Program-made: the position numbers and the translations under genes
Assembly: GCA_028714255.1 (NCBI GenBank)
Contig: JAQTMR010000001.1
Location: 310,001 to 374,000 of the forward strand
DNA from: Phycisphaerae bacterium
Lineage (GTDB): Bacteria > Planctomycetota > Phycisphaerae > Sedimentisphaerales > Anaerobacaceae
Direction of reading: 5' to 3'
Length of the DNA: 64,000 nt
Notes under the pieces: model-generated
What the model saw: only the letters and a program-made list of their open reading frames with translations
What the model was told of the DNA's origin: nothing
The model's database searches: none
Part shown: in pieces, positions 11,631 to 57,216 of the stretch
How the letters are laid out: each line of letters starts with the position of its first letter
Numbering within the stretch: the stretch's first letter is position 1

Positions 11631-13505
11631 ATGCGATACAGCCGAATGTTAATACCGACCATCAAGGAAGCCCCCGCCGACGCGGAAATTACCAGCCATA
11701 AACTAATGCTCCGTGCCGGCCTGATGCGAAAAATCGCCAGCGGAACATACACCTACCTGCCGCTCGGCTGGCGCAGCCTGCTCAAAGTAATAACAATCAT
11801 CCGCGACGAAATGAACAAGGCCGGCGCACAGGAAATCCTTATGCCCTCCGTCCAGCCGATAGAATTATGGCAAAAGACAGGCCGCAACATCGACTACGGC
11901 GAAACACTGGCGACCTTCAAAGACCGACACGGCCGGGAAAACGTACTCGCCCCCACCGCCGAGGAAGTCGTCACAAGCATCGCAGCCGGCGAAATAAACT
12001 CGTACAAACAACTGCCGCTCAACATCTACCAAATCAGCTTCAAGTTCCGCGATGAGTTTCGCCCGCGATTCGGCCCGCTCCGCTCACGCGAATTCCTAAT
12101 GAAAGACGCGTACAGCTTCCACGCCGACGAAACTTGCCTCGACAAAGAATACTGGAACATGTACGAAACCTATAAACGTATATTCGAACGCTGCGGCCTC
12201 GATTACGTAATCGTCGAAGCCGAGTCCGGCGAAATGGGCGGCTCAGGCTCACACCAGTTCACTATCCCCTGCGATTCAGGCGAAGACATCATCGTCTATA
12301 CCGAAGACTCCGCCTATGCCGCCAATATCGAAAAAGCCCCCGTTGACCCAATTCCGAAAAACATGGTTAGCCCCCAGGCCTGCCTGGGGGTAAATTCCCC
12401 CGCACCACAAGAAATCCACACCCCCAACGTCGGCTCCATCGATGCCGTCTGTGCCTTCCTGAAAACCCAACCGAAGGATATGATTAAGACCCTTATATAT
12501 ACATCACCACCACTCACCGCAGAATTGAAGAAAAGTATTAGCCGAGAGCAAGCAAAACATACTGGGGGGGCCGTAATAGTGGGAGAAGGGGTAGATTATC
12601 AACATGTTGCAGTTCTTGTGCGTGGTGACCATGAAATCAATCCTGAAAAGCTTAGGATAGTGTTGGGAGATTCTGCTGAATTAGCTGAGCCAGAAGAGAT
12701 ACAATTTATTACTAATGCAAAAGTTGGTTTCGCAGGACCTGTAGGATTGGCAGATAAGGTTGATAGAATAATTATCGACCACGCCGTCGCCGCAATGGCT
12801 ATTGGTGTCACCGGCGCAAACAAAACAGACTATCATATTAAAAACGTCGTCCCCGGCCGGGACTTCCCGCTCGAAGGCGACAATGTAACCATCGCAGACA
12901 TCCGCAACGCCGTCGAAGGCGATACATATAACGGAAAGAAACTACTCTTCAAGCATGGCATCGAAGTCGGACAGGTCTTCAAGCTCGGCACTAAATACAG
13001 CAAAAAACTCGACTGTAACTTCCTCGACGACTCCGGCAAAGAGAACCCCTGCCTTATGGGCTGCTATGGCATAGGCGTAAACCGTATCGTCGCATCCGCA
13101 ATCGAGCTTGGCAATGACGATAATGGTATCATTTGGCCGATTAGCATCGCACCATTCGAAGTCATCGTTACCAGCTTAAATCAGGACGATAAAGATGTAG
13201 TCGATACCGCCGAGAAAATCTATCAGCAACTGTTAGATAAAAATATCGACGCCCTGCTCGACGACCGCGACCTCCGCGCAGGCATAAAATTCAAAGACGC
13301 GGATTTAATCGGCATCCCCGTCCGCGTCACCGTCGGCAGTAAATCTGTAAAAGAGGGCAGCATCGAAATAAAACTCCGCAGCGAACAACAGAGCCAAAAA
13401 TTCCCCATCAATGACGCCGCGGACAAAACTATCGAAATAGTCGACTTACTGAAAAAGCAATTAATTCATCCTGTCATTCCTGCGCAAGCAGGAATCCAGG
13501 GATAG
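11631..13505 (+). CDS. proS: Prolyl-tRNA synthetase, bacterial type with editing insertion
   Basis: Charges tRNA-Pro and hydrolyses mischarged Ala-tRNA. 624 residues. Motif 2 FRDEFRPRFGPLRSREF and motif 3 CYGIGVNRIVASAIE of class II synthetases are present, with the YbaK-like editing insertion between them (about residues 240-400) and an anticodon-binding domain at the end (DLRAGIKFKDADLIGIPVR). Three oddities: a perfect palindrome at 12371-12390 adds residues SPQACLGVN between the core and the insertion; codons 283-380 prefer A/T-ending codons unlike the C-ending style on both sides; the last dozen residues (HPVIPAQAGIQG) are encoded by a dispersed repeat. None interrupts the frame. Confidence 0.96.
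   Translation: MRYSRMLIPTIKEAPADAEITSHKLMLRAGLMRKIASGTYTYLPLGWRSLLKVITIIRDEMNKAGAQEILMPSVQPIELWQKTGRNIDYGETLATFKDRHGRENVLAPTAEEVVTSIAAGEINSYKQLPLNIYQISFKFRDEFRPRFGPLRSREFLMKDAYSFHADETCLDKEYWNMYETYKRIFERCGLDYVIVEAESGEMGGSGSHQFTIPCDSGEDIIVYTEDSAYAANIEKAPVDPIPKNMVSPQACLGVNSPAPQEIHTPNVGSIDAVCAFLKTQPKDMIKTLIYTSPPLTAELKKSISREQAKHTGGAVIVGEGVDYQHVAVLVRGDHEINPEKLRIVLGDSAELAEPEEIQFITNAKVGFAGPVGLADKVDRIIIDHAVAAMAIGVTGANKTDYHIKNVVPGRDFPLEGDNVTIADIRNAVEGDTYNGKKLLFKHGIEVGQVFKLGTKYSKKLDCNFLDDSGKENPCLMGCYGIGVNRIVASAIELGNDDNGIIWPISIAPFEVIVTSLNQDDKDVVDTAEKIYQQLLDKNIDALLDDRDLRAGIKFKDADLIGIPVRVTVGSKSVKEGSIEIKLRSEQQSQKFPINDAADKTIEIVDLLKKQLIHPVIPAQAGIQG
12371..12390. repeat. In-frame palindrome inside proS
   Basis: CCCCCAGGC (12371-12379) and GCCTGGGGG (12382-12390) are perfect inverted repeats with a 2-base loop, translated as SPQACLG. 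Other synthetases have nothing here, so it looks like an insertion kept in frame. Related GC-rich hairpins with different stem sequences lie at 10402, 48754, 49662 and 49723. Confidence 0.7.
13473..13499 (+). repeat. GTCATTCC-type dispersed repeat forming the 3' end of proS
   Basis: A copy of the unit that begins GTCATTCCTGCG and ends GCAGGAATCCAG, a short palindrome found at least ten times in the window. Here it is translated as the end of ProS and runs to six bases before the stop codon. Confidence 0.85.
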
Positions 13506-13508
13506 AGA

Positions 13509-13799
13509 ATGAAGCAATATTTTGTTTATATATTGGCAAGTAATAGAAACGGGACTCTTTACACAGGTATAACAAGCAACTTGCTAAAAAGGGTTTATGA
13601 ACACAAAAATAACCTCGTAGAAGGATTTACGAAAAAATACAATGTCCACGACCTTGTGCACTATGAGACTTACAATTATGTTTATGACGCTATCGCCGGA
13701 GAGAAAACCATCAAAAAATGGAAAAGACAGTGGAAAATTGAATTGATAGAGAAGTCTAACCCAAAATGGGAAGACTTGTATTATAGTTTAAACGGTTAA
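13509..13799 (+). CDS. Small GIY-YIG nuclease-domain protein
   Basis: 96 residues, single-domain GIY-YIG family (UPF0213/YhbQ-like). The motif reads YFVYILASN then LYTGITSNLLKRVYEH, with the catalytic Tyr and Arg in place, and IKKWKRQWKIELIE near the end. Such short proteins are widespread and their substrate is mostly unknown. It starts 3 bases after the proS stop, next to a dispersed repeat that also supplies its GGGA ribosome site. A second member of the family lies at 61235. The A/T-rich codons differ from the proS core. Likely mobile or horizontally acquired (inference). Confidence 0.88.
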   Translation: MKQYFVYILASNRNGTLYTGITSNLLKRVYEHKNNLVEGFTKKYNVHDLVHYETYNYVYDAIAGEKTIKKWKRQWKIELIEKSNPKWEDLYYSLNG

Positions 13800-13846
13800 A
13801 GAAAACATGAAAAATTAGCTGGATTCAGCATCAAGTCTTGCCCCCT

Positions 13847-13997
13847 GTCATTCCTGCGAAAGCAGGAATCCAGGATAAGAAGAAGATATTTTTACTGTCA
13901 TTCCCGCGCAAGGTTGTCACCCCTGCGAAAGTAGGGGCAGAAATCCAGGATAAAAATAAGATGTTTTTACTGTCATTCCCGCGAAAGCGGGAATCCA
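13847..13997 (+). repeat. Cluster of three GTCATTCC-type repeats
   Basis: Three direct copies at 13847-13873, 13897-13949 and 13972-13997. The middle copy is interrupted by a shorter variant (GTTGTCACCCCTGCG). The 62-codon open frame across them (PVIPAKAGIQ, SFPRKRES) is only translated repeat and is not a gene. A further copy, inverted, lies at 14647-14673. Confidence 0.85.
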
Positions 13998-14025
13998 GAG
14001 TTTATTTAGGTGAAACAGCTGAATA

Positions 14026-14601
14026 ATGCTCTTGTGGACTTGGCAAAATCCGAACGTATCTCCGTTTAACGGTGAGTACGATAGTCTAAAACATTCATTT
14101 TACGTCAATAAAATGGCAAAAATAGACCGTGAAAGATTTATAAAGCCCTATAAGGAAATCTGGAAACGCCTTGGTAAAAAAGAAAATGAAAAGATAAAAA
14201 TACTATGGTGTTATACTGATGAGAAATACGCAAAGGAACAGAAATCTTCGTTCGATTACAAGAATAAGGTCTTATGGAAATTGGATGTTCCAGAAGAGAA
14301 TATACGCTATATCTGTAGTATTGCCTGGAATTGGATACTGTTTGGGAGAAGTGGGTGTACTTACCCAAGCAGGTTTGAGCACTTTTATAGAGCCTTGTAT
14401 AACGCGTCAAATAATCCTTCTCTCAAATACGAATTTTATGAAGCTTTCGATAGTGGGTGGCAAATGGTGAAGGAGAAGGGAACCTTATGGGATACATTAT
14501 TTTTCCCGAACGGTCTTGTAGAAGAATGCACTACTGCTATTGTCATTCATCCTGTTGAACAAACTTGGTTCAAAGAAAGCTTCGGTTTTGATGAGGTATA
14601 A
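14026..14601 (+). CDS. Hypothetical protein, A/T-rich orphan gene
   Basis: 191 residues; I recognise no family. It is rich in Trp, Tyr, Phe and Lys, with no signal peptide or membrane segment. Distinctive stretches are KIKILWCYTDEKYAKE, CSIAWNWILFGRSG and FFPNGLVEECTTAIVIHP. The start at 14026 has AGGTGA about 13 bases upstream; an in-frame ATG at 14113 is an alternative. The gene is bracketed by dispersed repeats (13972-13997 and the inverted copy at 14647-14673) and is lower in GC than its neighbours, which suggests an accessory gene gained between proS and the polysaccharide cluster. Confidence 0.6.
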   Translation: MLLWTWQNPNVSPFNGEYDSLKHSFYVNKMAKIDRERFIKPYKEIWKRLGKKENEKIKILWCYTDEKYAKEQKSSFDYKNKVLWKLDVPEENIRYICSIAWNWILFGRSGCTYPSRFEHFYRALYNASNNPSLKYEFYEAFDSGWQMVKEKGTLWDTLFFPNGLVEECTTAIVIHPVEQTWFKESFGFDEV

Positions 14602-14646
14602 AACCAAAGCCTTTTTAATTTGGTAATCTTAAGAATAATAGTTATT

Positions 14647-14673
14647 CTGGATTCCCGCTTTCGCGGGAATGAC
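14647..14673 (-). repeat. Inverted copy of the GTCATTCC-type repeat
   Basis: Begins CTGGATTCCCGC and ends GCGGGAATGAC, the reverse orientation of the copies at 13847-13997. Together they bracket the orphan gene at 14026-14601. Confidence 0.85.
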
Positions 14674-14696
14674 AAATGGTAAGAGAGTAAATACAA

Positions 14697-15239
14697 ATGT
14701 GGGAACTTCAAACCCCAAAACCTGTTAAACTCATAATCGCCGTCCTCGCCGCCGATGAAGATTGTCTAAAGGCCGCCCTTGAAGCGATAAACACCAGGTT
14801 CGGCAATGCCGATTTTCTAAGCGACGTCTGGCAGTTCAGCCAGACAGATTATTATAAGGACGAGATCGGCGAAAACATCTTAAGACAGTTCGTCAGCATC
14901 GAAAAACTAATTGACCCCGGCACACTCGCTCAAATAAAGCACGACGCCAATTCTCTCGAACAACAACTTGCCGATTCTCTAAAGCTTGCCCTGCCTCGGC
15001 CGGCAAACCTCGACCCGGGATTTATGGAACCGTCGAAACTGGTTCTCGCCTCGACAAAAAATTTCTCGCATCGCATCTACATCGGCAATAAAATGTTCGC
15101 AGAAGTAACCCTTGTGTATGAAAAAGGCAACTGGCGACATTTTGAATATACGTTCCCCGATTACAGACAGCAGTGTTACTTCGACTTTTTTAATAAGGTT
15201 CGTACCCGTCTATTGGAGCAGTTAAAATCGAAACATTAA
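14697..15239 (+). CDS. DUF4416 family protein
   Basis: 180 residues, about the full length of DUF4416, a family of unknown function found in deltaproteobacteria, planctomycetes and related groups. Recognised by the PVKLIIAVLAADE opening, FSQTDYYKDEIGENILRQFVS in the middle, IYIGNKMFAEVTLVYEKG and FPDYRQQCYFDFF at the end. No signal peptide. The start ATG at 14697 has AAGAGAG upstream. Its stop overlaps the apparent start of the next gene, so it is the first gene of a coupled unit with the glycosyl transferase and O-antigen ligase. Its role there is unknown. Confidence 0.85.
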   Translation: MWELQTPKPVKLIIAVLAADEDCLKAALEAINTRFGNADFLSDVWQFSQTDYYKDEIGENILRQFVSIEKLIDPGTLAQIKHDANSLEQQLADSLKLALPRPANLDPGFMEPSKLVLASTKNFSHRIYIGNKMFAEVTLVYEKGNWRHFEYTFPDYRQQCYFDFFNKVRTRLLEQLKSKH

Positions 15240-16336
15240 TCAGAGCATCTGTAATTTTACTCACCGGCTCATTCATACTGTCGGTCATCTTAACCGGCTT
15301 CGTAAAAAAGCTGGCCGAGCGCATCGGCTTCGTCGCTCATCCAGCCGCGGATAGATACCACCGCTCGACAGTCGCCCTCGGAGGCGGCATCGCCATCTTC
15401 GCAACAATAGCCTCTGCCATAATCACCGCCGTAGTCATAATAAAATTTCTGCTTGTCCCCGGCCGACTCTCCTGGCTCGTCGAATCCGCCAATATCAACC
15501 CTGCTGATTTTTTAGGCAAAACAAATCAGCTCGTCATTATTCTAATCTGCGCCCTTGTCTTGTTCCTGCTCGGCCTATGGGACGACAAAAAACACCTCGG
15601 CCCATTTTTCAAACTTATCGTCCAGTTCGCGGCCGCGATAACCGCCGCCGCCTTCGCCGATGTCAGGGTCGAATTCTTCATAGAAAATGAAATAATTACC
15701 ACTGCACTTTCGGCCTTCTGGATTGTCCTGATTATCAACGCTTTTAACTTCCTCGACAATATGGATGGCGCATCCGCAGGCATCGCCGTAATAGTATCTT
15801 CAATACTTTTCATCGCCGCCGCCGAAAGCGGACAGGTCTTCGTAGGAGGATTGGCCCTTGTCTTCACGGGGACATTGTTGGGCTTCTTGGTATTTAATTT
15901 CCCGCCCGCCAAAATCTTCGCAGGTGACGCAGGCTCGCTCGTAATCGGATTCTTCCTGGCGCTATTGTCCCTTCGCACAACATATTACCATCAGGCCCAG
16001 GCCGACCAGTGGTATCCGGTCTTTTTACCTCTTATCGTTATGGCAGTCCCGCTTTATGATTTTATCAGCGTAACGACCCTGCGAATAAAACAGGGCAAAA
16101 GCCCATTCGTCGGCGACACCCAGCATTTTTCTCATCGATTAAAAAAACGGGGCCTGACCGACACCCAAACAGTCCTGACCCTATACACAGCTACGCTTTG
16201 CACAGGCCTTGGCGCAACCTTCCTCTATCAGGTAAACCTCGCCGGAGCTTTTTTAATCTTCGCTCAAACGTTACTTGTTTTGGCTATTATCGCCATTCTC
16301 GAAACTACATCGGGAAATGAAAAAAATGCCGCTTGA
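15227..16336 (+). CDS. MraY/WecA-family undecaprenyl-phosphate sugar-1-phosphate transferase, apparent ATC start
   Basis: Inner-membrane enzyme that moves a HexNAc-1-phosphate from a UDP-sugar to undecaprenyl phosphate, the first step of surface glycan synthesis (family knowledge). About 369 residues with many membrane segments. Family motifs: LGGGIAIF, LLGLWDDKKHLGP, NAFNFLDNMDGASAG, FAGDAGSLVIGF and a late DTQHFSHRL of the WecA type. The frame opens after a stop at 15194 and contains no ATG, GTG or TTG before the conserved N-terminus. The best start is ATC at 15227 with GGAG eight bases before it, overlapping the DUF4416 stop; ATT at 15212 is less likely. The sugar is not determined. Confidence 0.88.
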   Translation: METLIRASVILLTGSFILSVILTGFVKKLAERIGFVAHPAADRYHRSTVALGGGIAIFATIASAIITAVVIIKFLLVPGRLSWLVESANINPADFLGKTNQLVIILICALVLFLLGLWDDKKHLGPFFKLIVQFAAAITAAAFADVRVEFFIENEIITTALSAFWIVLIINAFNFLDNMDGASAGIAVIVSSILFIAAAESGQVFVGGLALVFTGTLLGFLVFNFPPAKIFAGDAGSLVIGFFLALLSLRTTYYHQAQADQWYPVFLPLIVMAVPLYDFISVTTLRIKQGKSPFVGDTQHFSHRLKKRGLTDTQTVLTLYTATLCTGLGATFLYQVNLAGAFLIFAQTLLVLAIIAILETTSGNEKNAA

Positions 16337-18623
16337 TTCGAGCTCGTCAAAAACTAAAGGGCAGGTGATTTTAGAATACGTCCTGCTCGCTCTCTGCCTT
16401 TGCGTGATTGCGCTCCGGGCTACCGATACCGAAAATCCCGCTGCGCAATCTGCCTCTTTCACCACCCTAAGCGACAATCTTTATACTCTGTCCGTATCCG
16501 CTGTCCTTTTTTTCTCATTTGTATTATGGTTTATCTTTGCCCTTTGCAGTTCGAGATTTTCATATCGTTTCACCGCTTTGGAAATAGGCCTGTGCCTGCT
16601 CTGCATAGCCGCCGTAATCGCAGGTTTCGCCGCCTCGAACAAGCGGGCCGCAATTACAGATTCGCTTTGCCTTATCGCGCCGGTCCTGATGGCTGTCCTG
16701 CTAGTGCAAATTTTGGATTCACCGTCGAAAATAAAACTGGTGCTGACAGTCATTGCCGCTTTGGGAGTAGTCTCGGCCCATCAGTGCGTCGAACAGTTCT
16801 TCGTCAGCAACAAAGCTGTAATCGCTCAGTATGAACAGAACCCCCAAACTATGCTCCAAACCTTCGGAATCCAGCCCGGCTCCTTCCAGCAGTTCCTTTT
16901 CGAGCATCGCCTTTATTCGAAAGATGTCCGCGCCTTTTTCACTACCGGCAATTCCGCCGGCTCATTCGCAATATTGGCTTGCTTCGCCGCACTTGCCCTA
17001 TTCATCGACAAATTCAAAAATCGCCGCACCGGCCAATATACGCTTGTTTCTCTCATCACATCAGGCATCGTCGTCTCTGTCGTCATCTTCGGTCTTATCA
17101 TTACCCGCAGCAAAGGCGCCATCGCAGCATCTCTCATTGCCGCGGCTATGTTTGTCGCGTTTATTTACCTCGGCAACTGGCTAAACTCGCACAAAAAAGC
17201 AATACTGTTCGTCTGCTTAATATTTTTCATCGCCGCCGTCTTCGCAATCTCCGCCTACGGGCTGGCTCACGACCGACTGCCCGGCGGAAACTCGATGCTC
17301 GTCAGGTGGCAGTATTGGCACGCCTCTGCGAAAATGTATGCCGACCACTGGCGCACCGGCGTAGGCCCCGGAAACTTCGCGCATTTTTATACCCATTATA
17401 AACCCGCCGCCGCGATAGAGTCTGTTTCGGACCCGCACAACTTCCTGCTTTCTGTCCTCACCCAGTATGGCCCGCTTGGACTTATAGGTTTTTTAGCTTT
17501 GTTCATCCTGCCCTTATGGAAATCTTTTCCTGTGGTGAGCTTGTCGAACCCACCAGGCAAGCAAGATTCCCCCAGACAGCTTCAGCCACAGCCGAACTTC
17601 AGAACACTTGCTATAACTTATCTAACTATCGTATCCGCAGCACTGCTGTTTATCAGGCCGATGATTATGCCCTCCAACTATGGCGATACTCCCAACGTGA
17701 TAATTTACGTGGTGTTCACCTTATATGTCACGCCGGTGATTGCGTTTATTCTTGGTTCCTGGTTTTTAACGACAGGCACCAAACAAGCCGCAAGTAACGG
17801 GTCACGGGCCACGTATATTACTGCCGCTCTCTTCTGTGCCGCCATAGGCTTGCTTTTGCACAATCTGATAGACTTCGCCATTTTCGAACCGCCCGTATTC
17901 ACCGCCTTCTGCGCAATAATCGCTTGTCTCATCGCGGCAGACTTTAAACAAAAAGCATTCGCTCTGAAACCCGCCCTTCCCGCAAAAATAATTTTAACCT
18001 CGGCCGCTCTGGCATTAATTGCCGCTTATCTTTTTTACGCATGGGCCCCGGTCGCTAAAACCACAAAGATTCAAAGGCAAATGCACAGGTTTGGATATAG
18101 TTATGAGCTTCTCGATAAGGCAATTGAATACGACCGCATGGACCCAATCGCACCGAACCTGAACGGCAGGCTCTATCTACAGCGTTACAAAGAAACACCG
18201 AACGCACAAACGCTCCTGCTCGAAAAAGCTAAAACCTGTTTCCTCGCCGCCATTGACCGTGACAAGGCTGATTTCAGAAATTACGAAAAGCTAAGCGATG
18301 TTTACGCCCTGCTCGCGAAAAACCCATCATCGCAGGAAAAAAAATATTTACTGAATAAATCGCTCGACTACCTTAACTCTACCGTTGAGCGATACCCAGG
18401 CTCAAGTGATTTGCGAATCGAACTGGCCGAAGTCGCCGAACAGCTTGCCAAAAACGATGTCGCTATGGCTCAATACGAAAAAGCCGTCGAAATCGAAGAC
18501 GCCTATCGCAGCCAGTTTAAAATAATGTACCCGGGACGAAATGTTTTCAGCAGGCTCAGCCAGGAAAAATACGACACCGCCAAACAACGAATCAATGCCC
18601 TCTCCGAACAACCAACTCCCTGA
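16317..18623 (+). CDS. O-antigen ligase/polymerase (Wzy/WaaL type) with C-terminal TPR region
   Basis: 768 residues. About a dozen hydrophobic segments fill residues 20-580, including the O-antigen ligase hallmark SDPHNFLLSVLTQYGPLGLIGF and the upstream TGVGPGNFAHFY. A soluble C-terminus of about 170 residues has TPR-like helices (LLEKAKTCFLAAIDRD, LAKNDVAMAQYEKAVEIED). It polymerises or ligates lipid-linked glycan in the inner membrane (family knowledge). The start overlaps the transferase gene by 20 bases at ATG 16317; ATG 16326 is also possible. A repeat containing GGTGAGCTTGTCGAACC (17534-17550) is inserted in frame in a loop after the ligase motif. Ends two bases before the convergent yebC stop. 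Confidence 0.9.
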   Translation: MKKMPLDSSSSKTKGQVILEYVLLALCLCVIALRATDTENPAAQSASFTTLSDNLYTLSVSAVLFFSFVLWFIFALCSSRFSYRFTALEIGLCLLCIAAVIAGFAASNKRAAITDSLCLIAPVLMAVLLVQILDSPSKIKLVLTVIAALGVVSAHQCVEQFFVSNKAVIAQYEQNPQTMLQTFGIQPGSFQQFLFEHRLYSKDVRAFFTTGNSAGSFAILACFAALALFIDKFKNRRTGQYTLVSLITSGIVVSVVIFGLIITRSKGAIAASLIAAAMFVAFIYLGNWLNSHKKAILFVCLIFFIAAVFAISAYGLAHDRLPGGNSMLVRWQYWHASAKMYADHWRTGVGPGNFAHFYTHYKPAAAIESVSDPHNFLLSVLTQYGPLGLIGFLALFILPLWKSFPVVSLSNPPGKQDSPRQLQPQPNFRTLAITYLTIVSAALLFIRPMIMPSNYGDTPNVIIYVVFTLYVTPVIAFILGSWFLTTGTKQAASNGSRATYITAALFCAAIGLLLHNLIDFAIFEPPVFTAFCAIIACLIAADFKQKAFALKPALPAKIILTSAALALIAAYLFYAWAPVAKTTKIQRQMHRFGYSYELLDKAIEYDRMDPIAPNLNGRLYLQRYKETPNAQTLLLEKAKTCFLAAIDRDKADFRNYEKLSDVYALLAKNPSSQEKKYLLNKSLDYLNSTVERYPGSSDLRIELAEVAEQLAKNDVAMAQYEKAVEIEDAYRSQFKIMYPGRNVFSRLSQEKYDTAKQRINALSEQPTP

Positions 18624-18625
18624 CC

Positions 18626-19378
18626 CTATTCCTCTATCTTGCTCAATATCTCATCGGGTATGTCAAAATTAGAGTATGTGTTTTGAACGTCTTCGTGGTC
18701 CTCGAATGCTTCCATCAGTGAAATTATCTTTTTCGCCGTCTCAGCATCGCTGATTGGAATGGTATTTTGCGGAATCATCGAAATCTCACTCGACGCAATC
18801 GCCACCCCTTTTTCCGTCAGCGTATTCTTCAACTGTTCATAAACCGCTGCATCGCACGTTATCTCGAACAGCTCTCCGCTGTTTACCATGTCCTCTGCAC
18901 CTGCCGAAAGAACAATCTCCATAAGCTCGTCTTCGTTTGTATCAGCGGCCTTAACGGTAATCAGTCCCTTCTTATGGAACATCCAGTTAACGCATCCGCT
19001 TGCCCCGAACGAGCCGCCGCGCTTTTCGAATATCTTCTTTATTTCCGGCGCCGTCCGGTGAAGATTGTCCGTCAGTGCCTCGACAATTATGGCCACTCCC
19101 CCCGGCCCATAACCCTCATAGACCGCATCCACAAAACTTTCTCCGCCTATCTCCCCGGTGCCCTTTTTGATTGCCTTTTCAATTGTGTCTTTCGGCATAT
19201 TAACAGATTTGGCCTTGTCGATGGCATACCGCAAAGACAGATTCGCCCCTGGGTCGCCCCCGCCCGAACGGGCCGCCACGATTATCATTCGGGCTACCTT
19301 GCTCCACGCCTTGCCCCGTTTAGCGTCATTAGCTGCCTTCTTATGCTTTATACCTGACCAGTGAGAATGACCTGACAT
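18626..19378 (-). CDS. YebC/PmpR-family DNA-binding or translation factor
   Basis: 250 residues, the standard YebC size. The opening SGHSHWSGIKHKKAANDAKR is diagnostic, followed by SLRYAIDKAKSVNMPKDTI, YEGYGPGGVAIIVEALTDN and RTAPEIKKIFEKRGGS. YebC proteins are described as transcriptional regulators and more recently as helpers of translation through difficult motifs. I chose ATG at 19378 with AGGAG five bases upstream. The gene often neighbours ruvC; here it does not. Convergent with the O-antigen ligase gene. Confidence 0.96.
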   Translation of the reverse strand: MSGHSHWSGIKHKKAANDAKRGKAWSKVARMIIVAARSGGGDPGANLSLRYAIDKAKSVNMPKDTIEKAIKKGTGEIGGESFVDAVYEGYGPGGVAIIVEALTDNLHRTAPEIKKIFEKRGGSFGASGCVNWMFHKKGLITVKAADTNEDELMEIVLSAGAEDMVNSGELFEITCDAAVYEQLKNTLTEKGVAIASSEISMIPQNTIPISDAETAKKIISLMEAFEDHEDVQNTYSNFDIPDEILSKIEE

Positions 19379-19475
19379 ACCTGCTCCTGACAAAAAACAC
19401 AAAAATCCCCCTCATAACACAAAAAAATCAACAAAATGATTATAGCGTTTTTGCCGGCTAATGCAACCGTCGTCT

Positions 19476-20366
19476 CTACTGCTGCGCTCCTAATGTCGTC
19501 CGCATCTGAACCGAGTATAACGACGTCCGCGCCGTGATAAACAGCGTCTTTTTATCTTTGCCGCCGAAGCTCACATTGGATGGCTGCTCAGGGACCCTTA
19601 TCGACTCGATTTTTTCGCCGGCTTTATTGAAAACCGCCACAACACTGTTCGTCAGATAGATATTGCCCTCGTTATCTATCGTTAATCCATCAGAACCTTC
19701 CGCCGCAAAAAGCTTTTTATCTGCCAGCGTCCCGTCATCGTTTATTGTATATACGAACGTCTTACTGGCCCCGTGGTCGGCGACGTAAAGCGTCTTGCCG
19801 TCGGGTGTCCCTATAATCCCGTTAGGCCTGGCCATATCGTTAATTACGCGGATTACATTTGTACGGTCGGGAGTAAGATAATAAACACATTCCCTCTTCT
19901 GCTCCATACTCGCCCTGTCGCCGTATCGCGGGTCGGTAAAATAAATCCCGCCCTTGGCATCCACCCACAAATCGTTCGGACTGTTCAGCTTCTTGCCATC
20001 ATATTTATCCGCCAGCACCGTCTCCTTGCCGTCACTTCCGATTGAAACTAACTGCCGCCTGACCTCTTCACAGGCCAATAGGTTGCCGTTTTTGTCGAAG
20101 TATAAGCCGTTCGCGCCACCTGAATCCTCCATAAACGTTGACAGCTTGCCGTCCAGCGACCATTTGTGAATTCTATTATTGCGAATATCCGTAAAATAGA
20201 CATTACCCTCTTTATCAGCCATCGGCCCTTCCGTAAACTTGAACCCGCCGGCTAATTTCTCTACCTTAGCCCCTTCAGCTACCACGCTAACCTTCACAGC
20301 CCCACAGCTAACTGTTGCCGCCGCCATAATCACCAACGCCGTTAAAACATACCATTTACTGTTCAT
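19476..20366 (-). CDS. Exported SMP-30/gluconolactonase-family protein
   Basis: 296 residues. Hydrophobic export signal at the N-terminus (MNSKWYVLTALVIMAAATVS); the Cys after it could make it a lipoprotein, although the lipobox is weak. The rest is a six-bladed propeller of the SMP-30/LRE type, with the expected metal ligands in FKFTEGP (Glu), LNSPNDLWVD (Asn) and GSDGLTIDNEGN (Asp). Relatives hydrolyse sugar lactones such as gluconolactone in the periplasm. The substrate cannot be read. Single gene between yebC and the helicase, with A/T-rich sequence at its 5' side and no clear operon. Confidence 0.9.
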   Translation of the reverse strand: MNSKWYVLTALVIMAAATVSCGAVKVSVVAEGAKVEKLAGGFKFTEGPMADKEGNVYFTDIRNNRIHKWSLDGKLSTFMEDSGGANGLYFDKNGNLLACEEVRRQLVSIGSDGKETVLADKYDGKKLNSPNDLWVDAKGGIYFTDPRYGDRASMEQKRECVYYLTPDRTNVIRVINDMARPNGIIGTPDGKTLYVADHGASKTFVYTINDDGTLADKKLFAAEGSDGLTIDNEGNIYLTNSVVAVFNKAGEKIESIRVPEQPSNVSFGGKDKKTLFITARTSLYSVQMRTTLGAQQ

Positions 20367-54294: not shown

Positions 54295-54660
54295 TCACTC
54301 ACTTTTATGTAATATCGAACCGAAAATCTTCATTAGTTCGGTCGCTTCCTGTATCAGTTCATCTCGCTCACACTCAGGGTTAGGGTCGCCGTTTAAATCC
54401 ACCAGTCTGAGCCAGTATCCGCTTTCTTTTGATTCTTTGCGACATATCTTTATGCGCATTACAAAGTCCTTCTTGCTCAATGCCTCATTGGCTTCTATGT
54501 AGTTCGCCCCAACCGAACCGGAAGCATTAACCAATTGCCTTGAATCTTCGATGTTTGTTATAGTCTTCGGCAGTGTCTTAACAAACTCTCTCACCCTCTG
54601 AGCAAACCGAAATGTTCGCTCTTCGAGGTCATATTGCTTTGAGCCTTGCTTTTCGGCCAT
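54295..54660 (-). CDS. Four-helix bundle protein (S23/IVP-like)
   Basis: 121 residues. Belongs to the four-helix-bundle family first seen in 23S rRNA intervening sequences: LEERTFRFAQRVREFVKTLP, RQLVNASGSVGANYIEANEA and FVMRIKICRKESKESGYWLR are the family landmarks. Function unknown; often next to repeats and selfish DNA. It lies 10 bases after the PD-(D/E)XK-like gene, so they are likely cotranscribed, and both are inserted between groEL and dnaJ. Confidence 0.9.
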   Translation of the reverse strand: MAEKQGSKQYDLEERTFRFAQRVREFVKTLPKTITNIEDSRQLVNASGSVGANYIEANEALSKKDFVMRIKICRKESKESGYWLRLVDLNGDPNPECERDELIQEATELMKIFGSILHKSE

Positions 54661-54670
54661 TGGAATTTCT

Positions 54671-55543
54671 CTATTCCTTATTCTTTAGCTCCTCTAATTC
54701 TTCCAACTTGTTTCCGACAAAAACCTTTTCTACCTCTCCACCTTCTTTTACCCAACGCCAACGTTCATCAAATGGGCCAACAAACAAACCCTCAGGAAGT
54801 GGCTTTCGTGCAAAAGGATTTTCAATCACAACGACCCTTGGCACGCTATTTACGGAATATTTCTTTTGGAGATCCTCTCTATTCTGCCATGCTTCTGTTG
54901 CTGTGAACTTTCTGCCCTGCCTTCTTTCTTCCTCTCTAAAAGCCCTTTCTATCTCGACATTATCAAGAAACTCCTCCAAAACAACAATGGCACTTATAGT
55001 CGTGTTTTGGGGCTGTTTCCTTTTGGCATCAATCATTTTGCCACCGCTAAGAAATACAGTTCTTTCGGTTCCTTCAACTGCTTTACCTTCAGCAACATTA
55101 ATGTCCATTGAAATACCCAAGTTCCCCAACATTGCACCCAAGACAGTTTGAGGATCAAGTCTGGCTTGTCTGTCATCGATATTGAACACTACAAGTGAGC
55201 ACGAGTAGTCCTTAAATTGCTTACATTGTTTTCTTGCCTCGTTTATTTCATCTCGCAGGCCTGTGTATGGATCTATCCAAGCAGGCCGCTTAGTGGGCTC
55301 GTTACCCTTTTTTCTCAGTTCCTTGACTTCAAAAAAGCACTTCTGGCCATTGTAGTCTAAAGAGTAGTCCAGCTTTCTGGATTTTCCGGCTACTGGTAGT
55401 TCATAAATCCATTTGCCTCGAAATCTATTTGAATTCAAGTATTGCTCAAAAATCTTTTCCGATTTATTTTTGTGTTCTCGTTTTAACACGTTCAACGAAT
55501 TCAAAATTTTCACAATACAAGCCAGTATTGTTTTGAATTTCAT
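54671..55543 (-). CDS. PD-(D/E)XK-like putative nuclease
   Basis: 290 residues. The stretch KLDYSLDYNGQKCFFEVKEL fits a D-x(n)-E-x-K nuclease site (about residues 58-77), and WIDPYTGLRDEINEARKQCKQF is a helix like those after the site in restriction-type nucleases. The rest (NTTISAIVVLEEFLDNVEI, VVVIENPFARKPLPEGLFVGPF) recurs in hypothetical proteins I cannot name. Starts at ATG 55543. Lower GC than groEL and dnaJ. It sits with a four-helix-bundle gene inside the chaperone run between inverted repeats, so it is likely an acquired accessory gene. Activity unproven. Confidence 0.6.
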   Translation of the reverse strand: MKFKTILACIVKILNSLNVLKREHKNKSEKIFEQYLNSNRFRGKWIYELPVAGKSRKLDYSLDYNGQKCFFEVKELRKKGNEPTKRPAWIDPYTGLRDEINEARKQCKQFKDYSCSLVVFNIDDRQARLDPQTVLGAMLGNLGISMDINVAEGKAVEGTERTVFLSGGKMIDAKRKQPQNTTISAIVVLEEFLDNVEIERAFREEERRQGRKFTATEAWQNREDLQKKYSVNSVPRVVVIENPFARKPLPEGLFVGPFDERWRWVKEGGEVEKVFVGNKLEELEELKNKE

Positions 55544-55562
55544 ATTTTTGTCATTCGTATTT

Positions 55563-55595
55563 GTTTCGTATTTCGGATTTCGATATTCGGATTTT
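55563..55595 (+). repeat. TTCGATATTCG-type repeat, right flank of the inserted gene pair
   Basis: Reads GTTTCGTATTTCGGATTTCG then ATATTCGGATTTT, inverted relative to 54220-54257. It overlaps the stop codon of groEL1 (55594-55596). Confidence 0.65.
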
Positions 55596-57216
55596 ATCTT
55601 ACTGCTCCTGGTATGGGCTCTTCGTCTTTATCTTTCAAATCGGTTATCAGCACGTTCGTCGTCAGCATCAATCCCGCCACCGATGCCGCGCTTTGCAATG
55701 CGGTCCTCGCAACTTTTGCCGGGTCGATAATCCCTGCCTTGAACATATTAACGAACTGTCCGGTGTTCGCGTCATAACCGGCGTTTTCATCTTTCTCCAG
55801 CTTCTCGAGCAATTGTGCGACAACCACATCGCCATGCTCGCCGGAGTTATCGACTATCTGTTTCGTCGGCGCTTTAAGGGCGTCAATTACAATATCGAAA
55901 CCGATTTTCTCATCGCCTTTTGCTTTTGCCTTGGCTTTTTCCACGCTGCTGATGGCGCGAAGGAACACAACACCGCCGCCAGCGACAACGCCTTCTTCCG
56001 TTGCCGCCCTCGTGGCGTGAAGCGCATCTTCAAGAAGGTCCTTGCGTTCCTTCATTTCTGTTTCTGTCGCTGCGCCAGCTTTTATAATCGCAACTCCGCC
56101 GCTCAGCTTCGCAAGACGTTCCTGCAATTTCTCTTTGTCGTAGCTGCTGGTCGTTTTTTCTATCTGGTTGCGAATCTGGTCGCAGCGCGATTTCATATCC
56201 TGTTTTCTTCCGCCGCCCTCGACTATCGTGGTCGTTTCCTTGCCCACGATAATCTTCCTTGCCTGGCCTAATTGCGAAAGCTCGATTTTCTCAAGCTTAG
56301 TACCCAAATCTTCGGTAATTACCTCTCCGCCCGTCAGTGCAGCTATATCAGCTAACATCGCTTTTCTGCGGTCGCCGAATCCCGGTGCCTTGACGGCACA
56401 GACCTTCAACACGCCTTGCAAACGATTAATTACCAGAGCCGCCAAAGCCTCGCCCTCGACATCTTCTGCGATAATCAACAAGGGCTTGGCAACCTGCGCG
56501 GTTTTTTCCAACAGCGGTATAATCTCGCGGATACTGGCTATTTTCTTTTCGTGCAGCAGTATATATGCGTCTTCTAAAATCGCTTCGAGCGTTTCCGGAT
56601 TAGTCATAAAATATGGAGATATATACCCCTTGTCGAACTGCATACCTTCGACAACGGTCAGCTCGTTTTCCATCCCTTTGCCTTCCTCGACCTCTATGAC
56701 GCCTTCCTTGCCGACCTTATCGATTGCCTTAGCTAATATTTCCCCGACCTGCGCGTTATTGTTCGCGCTGATAGTCGCAACTTTCGCTATATCGGCATGG
56801 CCCTTGACTTCCACGCTCGCGTCTTCGATAAATTTCGTTACCACTTCGGCAGCCTTGTTGATTCCCCTCTGGATGGCTGTCGGATTCACGCCCGAAGTAA
56901 CATATTTCAGCCCCTCGGTATAAATCGCTTCCGCCAGAACCGTTGAAGTCGTCGTCCCGTCGCCCACTGCGTCGGATGTTTTGTTGGCGACCTGGTTGAC
57001 CATCTTGGCGCCCATATTCTTAAATGGTTCGGGCAACTCGATTTCCTTACTGACGGTCACGCCGTCCTTCGTCACCTTCGGCGAACCCCAGCTCTTATGC
57101 AAAATAACATTTCTCCCCGTCGGGCCGAGCGTAACCTTCACCGCTTCCGCTAATTGTGAAAGCCCGTCTTTAAGATGCGCCCGGGCCGTATTATCGAACA
57201 TTAATTGTTTTGCCAT
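55594..57216 (-). CDS. groEL: Chaperonin GroEL, paralogue 1 (without Gly/Met tail)
   Basis: 540 residues. 60-kDa chaperonin that folds proteins inside a cage closed by GroES. Landmarks: [21 protein letters not shown], the ATP site [48 protein letters not shown] and [13 protein letters not shown]. The end is [14 protein letters not shown], without the Gly-Gly-Met tail, which may alter cage behaviour (inference). It is cotranscribed with groES 33 bases upstream. Sequence differs widely from paralogue 2 at 59285. Confidence 0.97.

Follow-up and report, generated by a model that had tools for sequence, protein, structure and literature searches.

A putative conserved AUH start codon that may limit translation of a membrane glycosyl-1-phosphate transferase in planctomycetes

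To our knowledge, AUU, AUC and AUA (AUH) start codons are known in few bacterial genes outside infC. The infC gene resembles the glycosyl transferase gene described here, a member of the Glycos_transf_4 (GT4) family, in that its near-cognate AUH start is conserved across the clade with the codon free among AUU, AUC and AUA. In infC, unlike GT4, the gene product itself inspects the start codon, an autoregulatory loop that GT4 lacks, and GT4 differs in turn by using ATG, TTG or CTG in part of the clade. Conserved near-cognate starts with a strong Shine-Dalgarno (SD) sequence have also been described for genes that do not encode IF3, namely ccpN of Staphylococcus aureus and Bacillus subtilis (AUA) and cvfC1 of S. 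aureus (AUU), and near-cognate starts with an extended SD in S. aureus lowered expression in poor medium to about 10% of that from AUG (PMC13009471). These Firmicutes genes encode a regulator and a small protein, however, whereas GT4 is a planctomycete membrane enzyme whose start is often buried in the upstream gene. Escherichia coli pcnB (AUU) is reported to encode, like GT4 as we read it, an enzyme limited by its start codon, and pcnB is not known to us to overlap an upstream gene. The odd start codon of Streptomyces sigR is reported to be repressed by IF3 (PMC5472188), but it is GTC rather than AUH and belongs to a sigma factor kept in balance with its anti-sigma factor. A survey of codon-anticodon pairing states that the first two bases tolerate only Watson-Crick pairs and that IF3 excludes weaker third-base pairs (PMC10158994).

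The gene studied here lies in a 64,000-nucleotide stretch of a Phycisphaerae bacterium contig (the window). This gene, encoding a MraY/WecA-type polyprenyl-phosphate glycosyl-1-phosphate transferase (GT4; 15227..16336, forward strand, 369 codons plus stop), was assigned from PF00953, an AlphaFold2 model and a PDB fold match. It follows a forward-strand DUF4416 gene (14697..15239; Pfam PF14385, E 4.4e-53) that starts with ATG and stops at TAA 15237-15239, and it precedes a forward-strand Wzy_C/O-antigen-ligase-like gene (16317..18623; Pfam PF04932, E 7.3e-15) that begins at ATG 16317 or 16326 and overlaps the GT4 stop. An initial annotation had claimed that GT4 lacks ATG, GTG or TTG between an in-frame stop at 15194 and its first helix, and that it appears to start instead at an ATC with GGAG eight bases upstream, overlapping the end of DUF4416. 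The sequence bears out both statements. The open GT4 frame is bounded by two forward-strand TAA stops (15191-15193 and 15194-15196), and from the second of these no ATG, GTG or TTG occurs in frame up to TTG 15560, the first standard codon, which lies within the protein. The proposed start, ATC 15227..15229 on the forward strand, would be read as fMet and is the one near-cognate codon constant in all 27 aligned overlap-type junctions. It is preceded by a forward-strand GGAG SD core (15215..15218), which recurs in every one of these 27 junctions and also encodes DUF4416 residues, with a spacer of 8 nt (15219-15226), and it sits 7 nt before the DUF4416 stop, such that the ribosome-binding site and start of GT4 are inside the DUF4416 3' end. 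The open stretch reads GSYPS-ATT-GAVK-ATC-ETL-ATC-RASV-ATT-LLTGSF, and while ATT 15212 and ATC 15239 are further near-cognate codons within it, only the codon at 15227 is constant in the aligned overlap-type junctions. A scan of the 49 long ORFs kept in the window returned, besides GT4, one ORF whose first 80 codons include no standard start, the unverified ORF 117-647. Further near-cognate candidates at 54295-54684 and 54671-55627 were rejected, as both have plausible ATG starts, and a search of 13400-19500 against Rfam gave three matches only, all under gathering scores.

The GT4 protein scores above the PF00953 cut-off (113.4 bits, cut-off 27, E 1.3e-32) and far under the NCBIfam equivalog cut-offs for WecA (ECA_wecA, 125.3 vs 326.05 bits) and MraY (mraY, 32.4 vs 192.05 bits). 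The protein has the fold, the GT4 domain and the acidic and His motifs in common with WecA, TagO and MraY of the PNPT superfamily. The same genome carries a separate true mraY (locus L161) and a further GT4 paralogue (L002) with an ATG available. An AlphaFold2 model built from 26 sequences (mean pLDDT 82.1, pTM 0.86) places helix 1 at residues 2 to 33, numbered from the ATC, and a Foldseek search of the PDB returned 37 hits at an E value of 0.001 or lower, the best being MraY 6oyh_D (E 3.3e-9, TM 0.66/0.72). Because the modelled first helix spans these residues and MraY structures match, a start at ATC would yield a complete first membrane helix, and the earlier proposal that this codon gives the normal length for the family remains the best reading. 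Residues D119, D120, N174, D177, D180, G233-D234, H300 and H303, which we take to be catalytic-type residues of the GT4 family, are invariant in the 26 aligned sequences, and the frame is intact.

A census of start junctions was made in relatives of the window. A protein search found the GT4 family in 98 of 99 relatives, and the best 80 of 537 confirmed genome-contig stretches with the family, drawn from Phycisphaerae, Sedimentisphaerales and other Planctomycetota assemblies, were kept. After removal of duplicate junctions and of those lying close to the end of a contig, 88 junctions remained, and 40 more stretches from relatives contributed 14 new junctions for a total of 102 distinct junctions (L007, L092 and L100 were left out of the junction table, the contig or match ending too near). 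Start states, assigned by hand with ATG as the default class, were ATC overlapping DUF4416 in 30, ATT, ATA or ATC clear of every detected DUF4416 gene in 17, TTG in 8, CTG in 1, GTG in 3 and ATG in 43; L216, although it gave no DUF4416 match, was assigned to the overlap class because its sequence resembles that class, and L112 was counted as ATG for its ATG at +6 behind AAGGAG. The start column thus holds ATC, ATT or ATA in 47 of 102 junctions, compared with a background frequency of 5.3% for these triplets over the preceding 60 nt, and by this count AUH is more frequent there than chance. An SD of at least four bases accompanies 43 of the 44 scored AUH junctions. On a tree of the junctions, made by a quick method and with many weak branches, a minimum of 14 switches between AUH and non-AUH starts is needed over the whole tree.

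Both same-genus relatives (L004 and L016) fall with the window in the overlap-ATC class, and the window's ATC is common to them and 27 other junctions. The initial annotation had proposed checking whether close homologues all lack a standard start, and the outcome favors its reading, as these junctions share ATC and 17 additional ones keep ATT, ATA or ATC outside any detected DUF4416 gene. Its refuting condition applies in part, among more distant relatives: 46 of 102 junctions, including clades nested within the group, start with ATG or GTG at this position or close to it, and a weak start is therefore not indispensable. The window's assembly is a draft of 39 contigs, which could suggest a 5'-truncated or mis-assembled pseudogene, or an ATC that is a base error for ATG or GTG. 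The intact frame, the invariant catalytic-type residues and the wide sharing of ATC make such an artefact extremely improbable, and so many separate assemblies carry the codon that a base error concealing ATG or GTG is excluded.

The overlap form accounts for 30 of 102 junctions, one of them inferred. Here the ribosome-binding site and start of GT4 coincide with the DUF4416 codons for LLEQLKS, and all 27 aligned junctions have GGA, GCA and ATC at codons -4, -3 and 0 (pattern GGA GCA NNN NNN ATC), with ATC overlapping the AAA TCN of the Lys-Ser pair. DUF4416 codons alone can account for the constancy of ATC in this group, and the same AAA TC codons are kept in non-overlapping L010, L017, L019, L028 and L030, whose GT4 begins elsewhere. 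For this reason the constancy of ATC in the overlap form is by itself no proof of use, and junctions separated from DUF4416 provide the stronger evidence. A wobble test, which expected the DUF4416 Lys codon AAA to be kept only with GT4 overlap, gave no support, as AAA also occurs in the non-overlapping relatives.

If ATC were merely DUF4416 coding sequence, GT4 would have to start elsewhere, at the ATT at -6, at the GTG at +1 or TTG/GTG at +3 of its relatives, or at a further inner codon, and TTG or GTG does occur at one of the latter two positions in several relatives. However, 12 of the 27 overlap-type junctions, the window included, have no ATG, GTG or TTG from the upstream stop through codon +8, and only 20 of 27 retain ATT at -6. 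Non-overlap relatives hold ATT or ATA with an SD at the ATC column, and variation across codons 5-12 of the overlap group peaks at the third position (0.364/0.246/0.445 for the three positions), as it does in translated sequence. A start elsewhere is on these grounds unlikely. Counting against ATC as the start, GTG directly follows the ATC column in L008, L055 and L068, and in three of L008, L055, L068 and L206 the GTG after the start column overlaps the DUF4416 TGA. L206 has AAC in place of ATC and retains the adjacent GTG one codon later; it is possibly a step from ATC to GTG.

The geometry of the overlap also raises programmed -1 frameshifting, in which ribosomes would leave DUF4416 at G TTA AAA, enter the GT4 frame and yield a fusion protein, GT4 having no start of its own. 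In favor of this, GT4 lies in the -1 frame relative to DUF4416 and overlaps it, GGAG lies just upstream of the heptamer, and G UUA AAA is similar to known slippery heptamers. The heptamer varies among relatives, however, with GCTAAAA, GTTGAAA, GCTAAGA, ACTTAAA, ACTCAAA and ATTGAAA in its place in other junctions (seven different in all), and in L068 an in-frame TAA directly precedes the ATC. For the 17 separated junctions, which still hold the column, frameshifting out of DUF4416 is ruled out because the start lies outside any detected DUF4416 gene. We consider this mechanism very unlikely for GT4, and return to ATC as a start codon.

In the separated form, the AUH codon is ATT in 15 junctions, ATA in one and ATC in one, none of them within a detected DUF4416 gene, and for four (L021, L026, L062 and L077) DUF4416 was not found anywhere in the locus. 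The SD comprises at least four bases in 16 of these 17 junctions, at least five in 12 and at least six in 10, with strong examples in L018, L021, L050, L062 and L077. In L066, L076 and L077 a single codon separates ATT from an in-frame stop, and the near-cognate codon can hence hardly be an inner Ile codon. No standard start is present from the stop through codon +8 in four of the 17 (L018, L021, L026 and L080), while each of the other 13 has a standard codon somewhere in this interval, in most cases lacking an SD at suitable spacing. Separated ATT or ATA forms are nested among ATC-overlap relatives at five places on the tree (L021 with L026; L018; L032; L025; and L076 with L050 and L062), from which it follows that the near-cognate codon outlived replacement of everything upstream, and a deeper group also has ATT or ATC at the start column (L066, L077, L080, L084, L087, L088, L090, L099 and L101). 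Comparison thus shows that the putative AUC/AUU/AUA start column is held across much of the clade, including lineages with replaced upstream sequence and no overlap.

SD use within GT4 differs with the type of start. A match of at least four bases is found in 27 of 27 overlap junctions, 16 of 17 separated AUH junctions and 23 of 35 ATG/GTG starts, and a match of at least five in 12 of 17 separated AUH junctions vs 13 of 35 ATG/GTG starts (Fisher p 0.038, relatedness ignored). The longer SD at separated AUH starts agrees with the extended SDs reported at near-cognate starts of S. aureus (PMC13009471). Among 27 strong-SD non-overlap junctions, the codon 6-8 nt downstream is ATT, ATA or ATC in 12, ATG in 3, TTG in 2, CTG in 2, GTG in 1 and another in 7, counts that are descriptive only, as this SD-anchored test is poorly calibrated and often missed the known starts of control genes (the yebC spacing is shorter, and 58 of 74 DUF4416 copies have no SD). 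Against the near-cognate start, an in-frame ATG occurs two codons before ATT or ATC in L032, L084, L087 and L088, only 1 nt past the SD core in L032, L087 and L088. L018 has an out-of-frame ATG-TGA minimal ORF between SD and ATT.

Control genes of the same clade place the GT4 codon in context. The infC start is ATT, ATC or ATA in 29 of 29 loci, at the aligned codon in 26 and one codon earlier in three, with some standard codon within 8 codons in 8 of the 29; infC of the window's own genome (L123) starts with ATT, and that of its closest kin sits behind a motif like AAAGGYAAGGTGGTNNACA (loci L123 and L113-L141). DUF4416, by contrast, starts with ATG in 91 of 91 scored copies (5 more are not aligned at the N-terminus) and yebC with ATG in 30 of 30 loci, while 30 mraY loci (L142-L171) have ATG in 24, TTG in 3 and GTG in 2, with one not aligned to its start. 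It follows that ribosomes of this clade use AUH in the textbook case and not in these ordinary genes. An SD of at least four bases was found in 7 of 74 DUF4416, 9 of 29 mraY, 29 of 30 yebC and 27 of 28 infC genes; most DUF4416 and mraY genes are without an SD, and yebC, infC and near-cognate GT4 genes have one. The yebC-like ORF of the window, on the reverse strand, was listed from TTG 19402, and the column of ATG 19378 is ATG in 30 of 30 loci scored, making ATG 19378 its most likely start.

The reading that we favor, and consider likely, is that GT4 is translated from a true near-cognate ATC start that limits enzyme synthesis, is probably IF3-sensitive, and is coupled to DUF4416 where the two genes overlap. 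Initiator tRNA would read ATC 15227 as Met, the codon being selected by GGAG eight bases upstream, and IF3 would reject most initiation attempts, such that little enzyme would be made for the first committed, lipid-carrier-consuming membrane step of a glycan pathway. In the overlap form, GT4 would be made mainly by ribosomes finishing DUF4416, through coupling or re-initiation, and in the separated form the stronger SD would partly offset the weak codon. As with infC, GT4 output would be predicted to increase under a shortage of IF3. The initial annotation suggested that the amount of enzyme could be held down, or linked to the upstream gene, in this way, which fits the pattern and is plausible.

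The start could instead be real and its weakness incidental, with ATC captured when the two genes came to overlap and retained, without any regulatory function, by drift and by the constraint from DUF4416. The 46 of 102 junctions that use ATG or GTG agree with this, as does the constraint that the overlap places on the third base, where a change from C to G would alter a Ser in DUF4416. Five separated lineages free of that constraint nevertheless kept ATT or ATA, and SD matches at separated AUH starts are longer than at ATG/GTG starts in the comparison above, in which relatedness was ignored; we hold incidental weakness to be possible rather than probable. The GT4 start looks like a lasting way to hold back production rather than a sequencing error. 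More tentatively, and with considerable doubt, we hypothesize that a surface-glycan entry step is under IF3-style start-codon control, its AUH start having been kept through repeated loss of the DUF4416 overlap. If so, glycan priming would follow the IF3:ribosome ratio, the same signal that sets IF3, and envelope synthesis would be linked to translation capacity.

No earlier report of an AUH start in this GT4 family was found among the matches listed in open-access literature for GT4 or undecaprenyl with start codon, or among those listed for planctomycetes and start codons, and an open-access search found no literature on DUF4416. As read here, the GT4 start joins the few near-cognate starts known to be conserved (infC, pcnB, sigR, ccpN), and its putative features are unusual: the product is a membrane glycosyl-1-phosphate transferase, and the start is embedded in an upstream gene and survives the loss of that embedding. 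Gene callers limited to ATG, GTG and TTG would miss the true N-terminus of this membrane enzyme in dozens of genomes. The retention of AUH in several lineages with replaced upstream DNA makes the family a good natural test of selection on weak starts, whether for dosage or for IF3-linked control.

The window also contains a palindromic repeat, GGATTCC(C/T)GC....GC(A/G)GGAATGAC, in seven copies (13473, 13847, 13972, 14649, 42484, 48794 and 49748) vs 0.01 expected in shuffles. The copy at 13473 sits within the 3' end of ORF 11631-13505, presumably a prolyl-tRNA synthetase, to which it would add a C-terminal VIPAQAGIQG. The small ORF that follows (13509-13799) encodes what we take, from its motif, to be a GIY-YIG nuclease-type protein.
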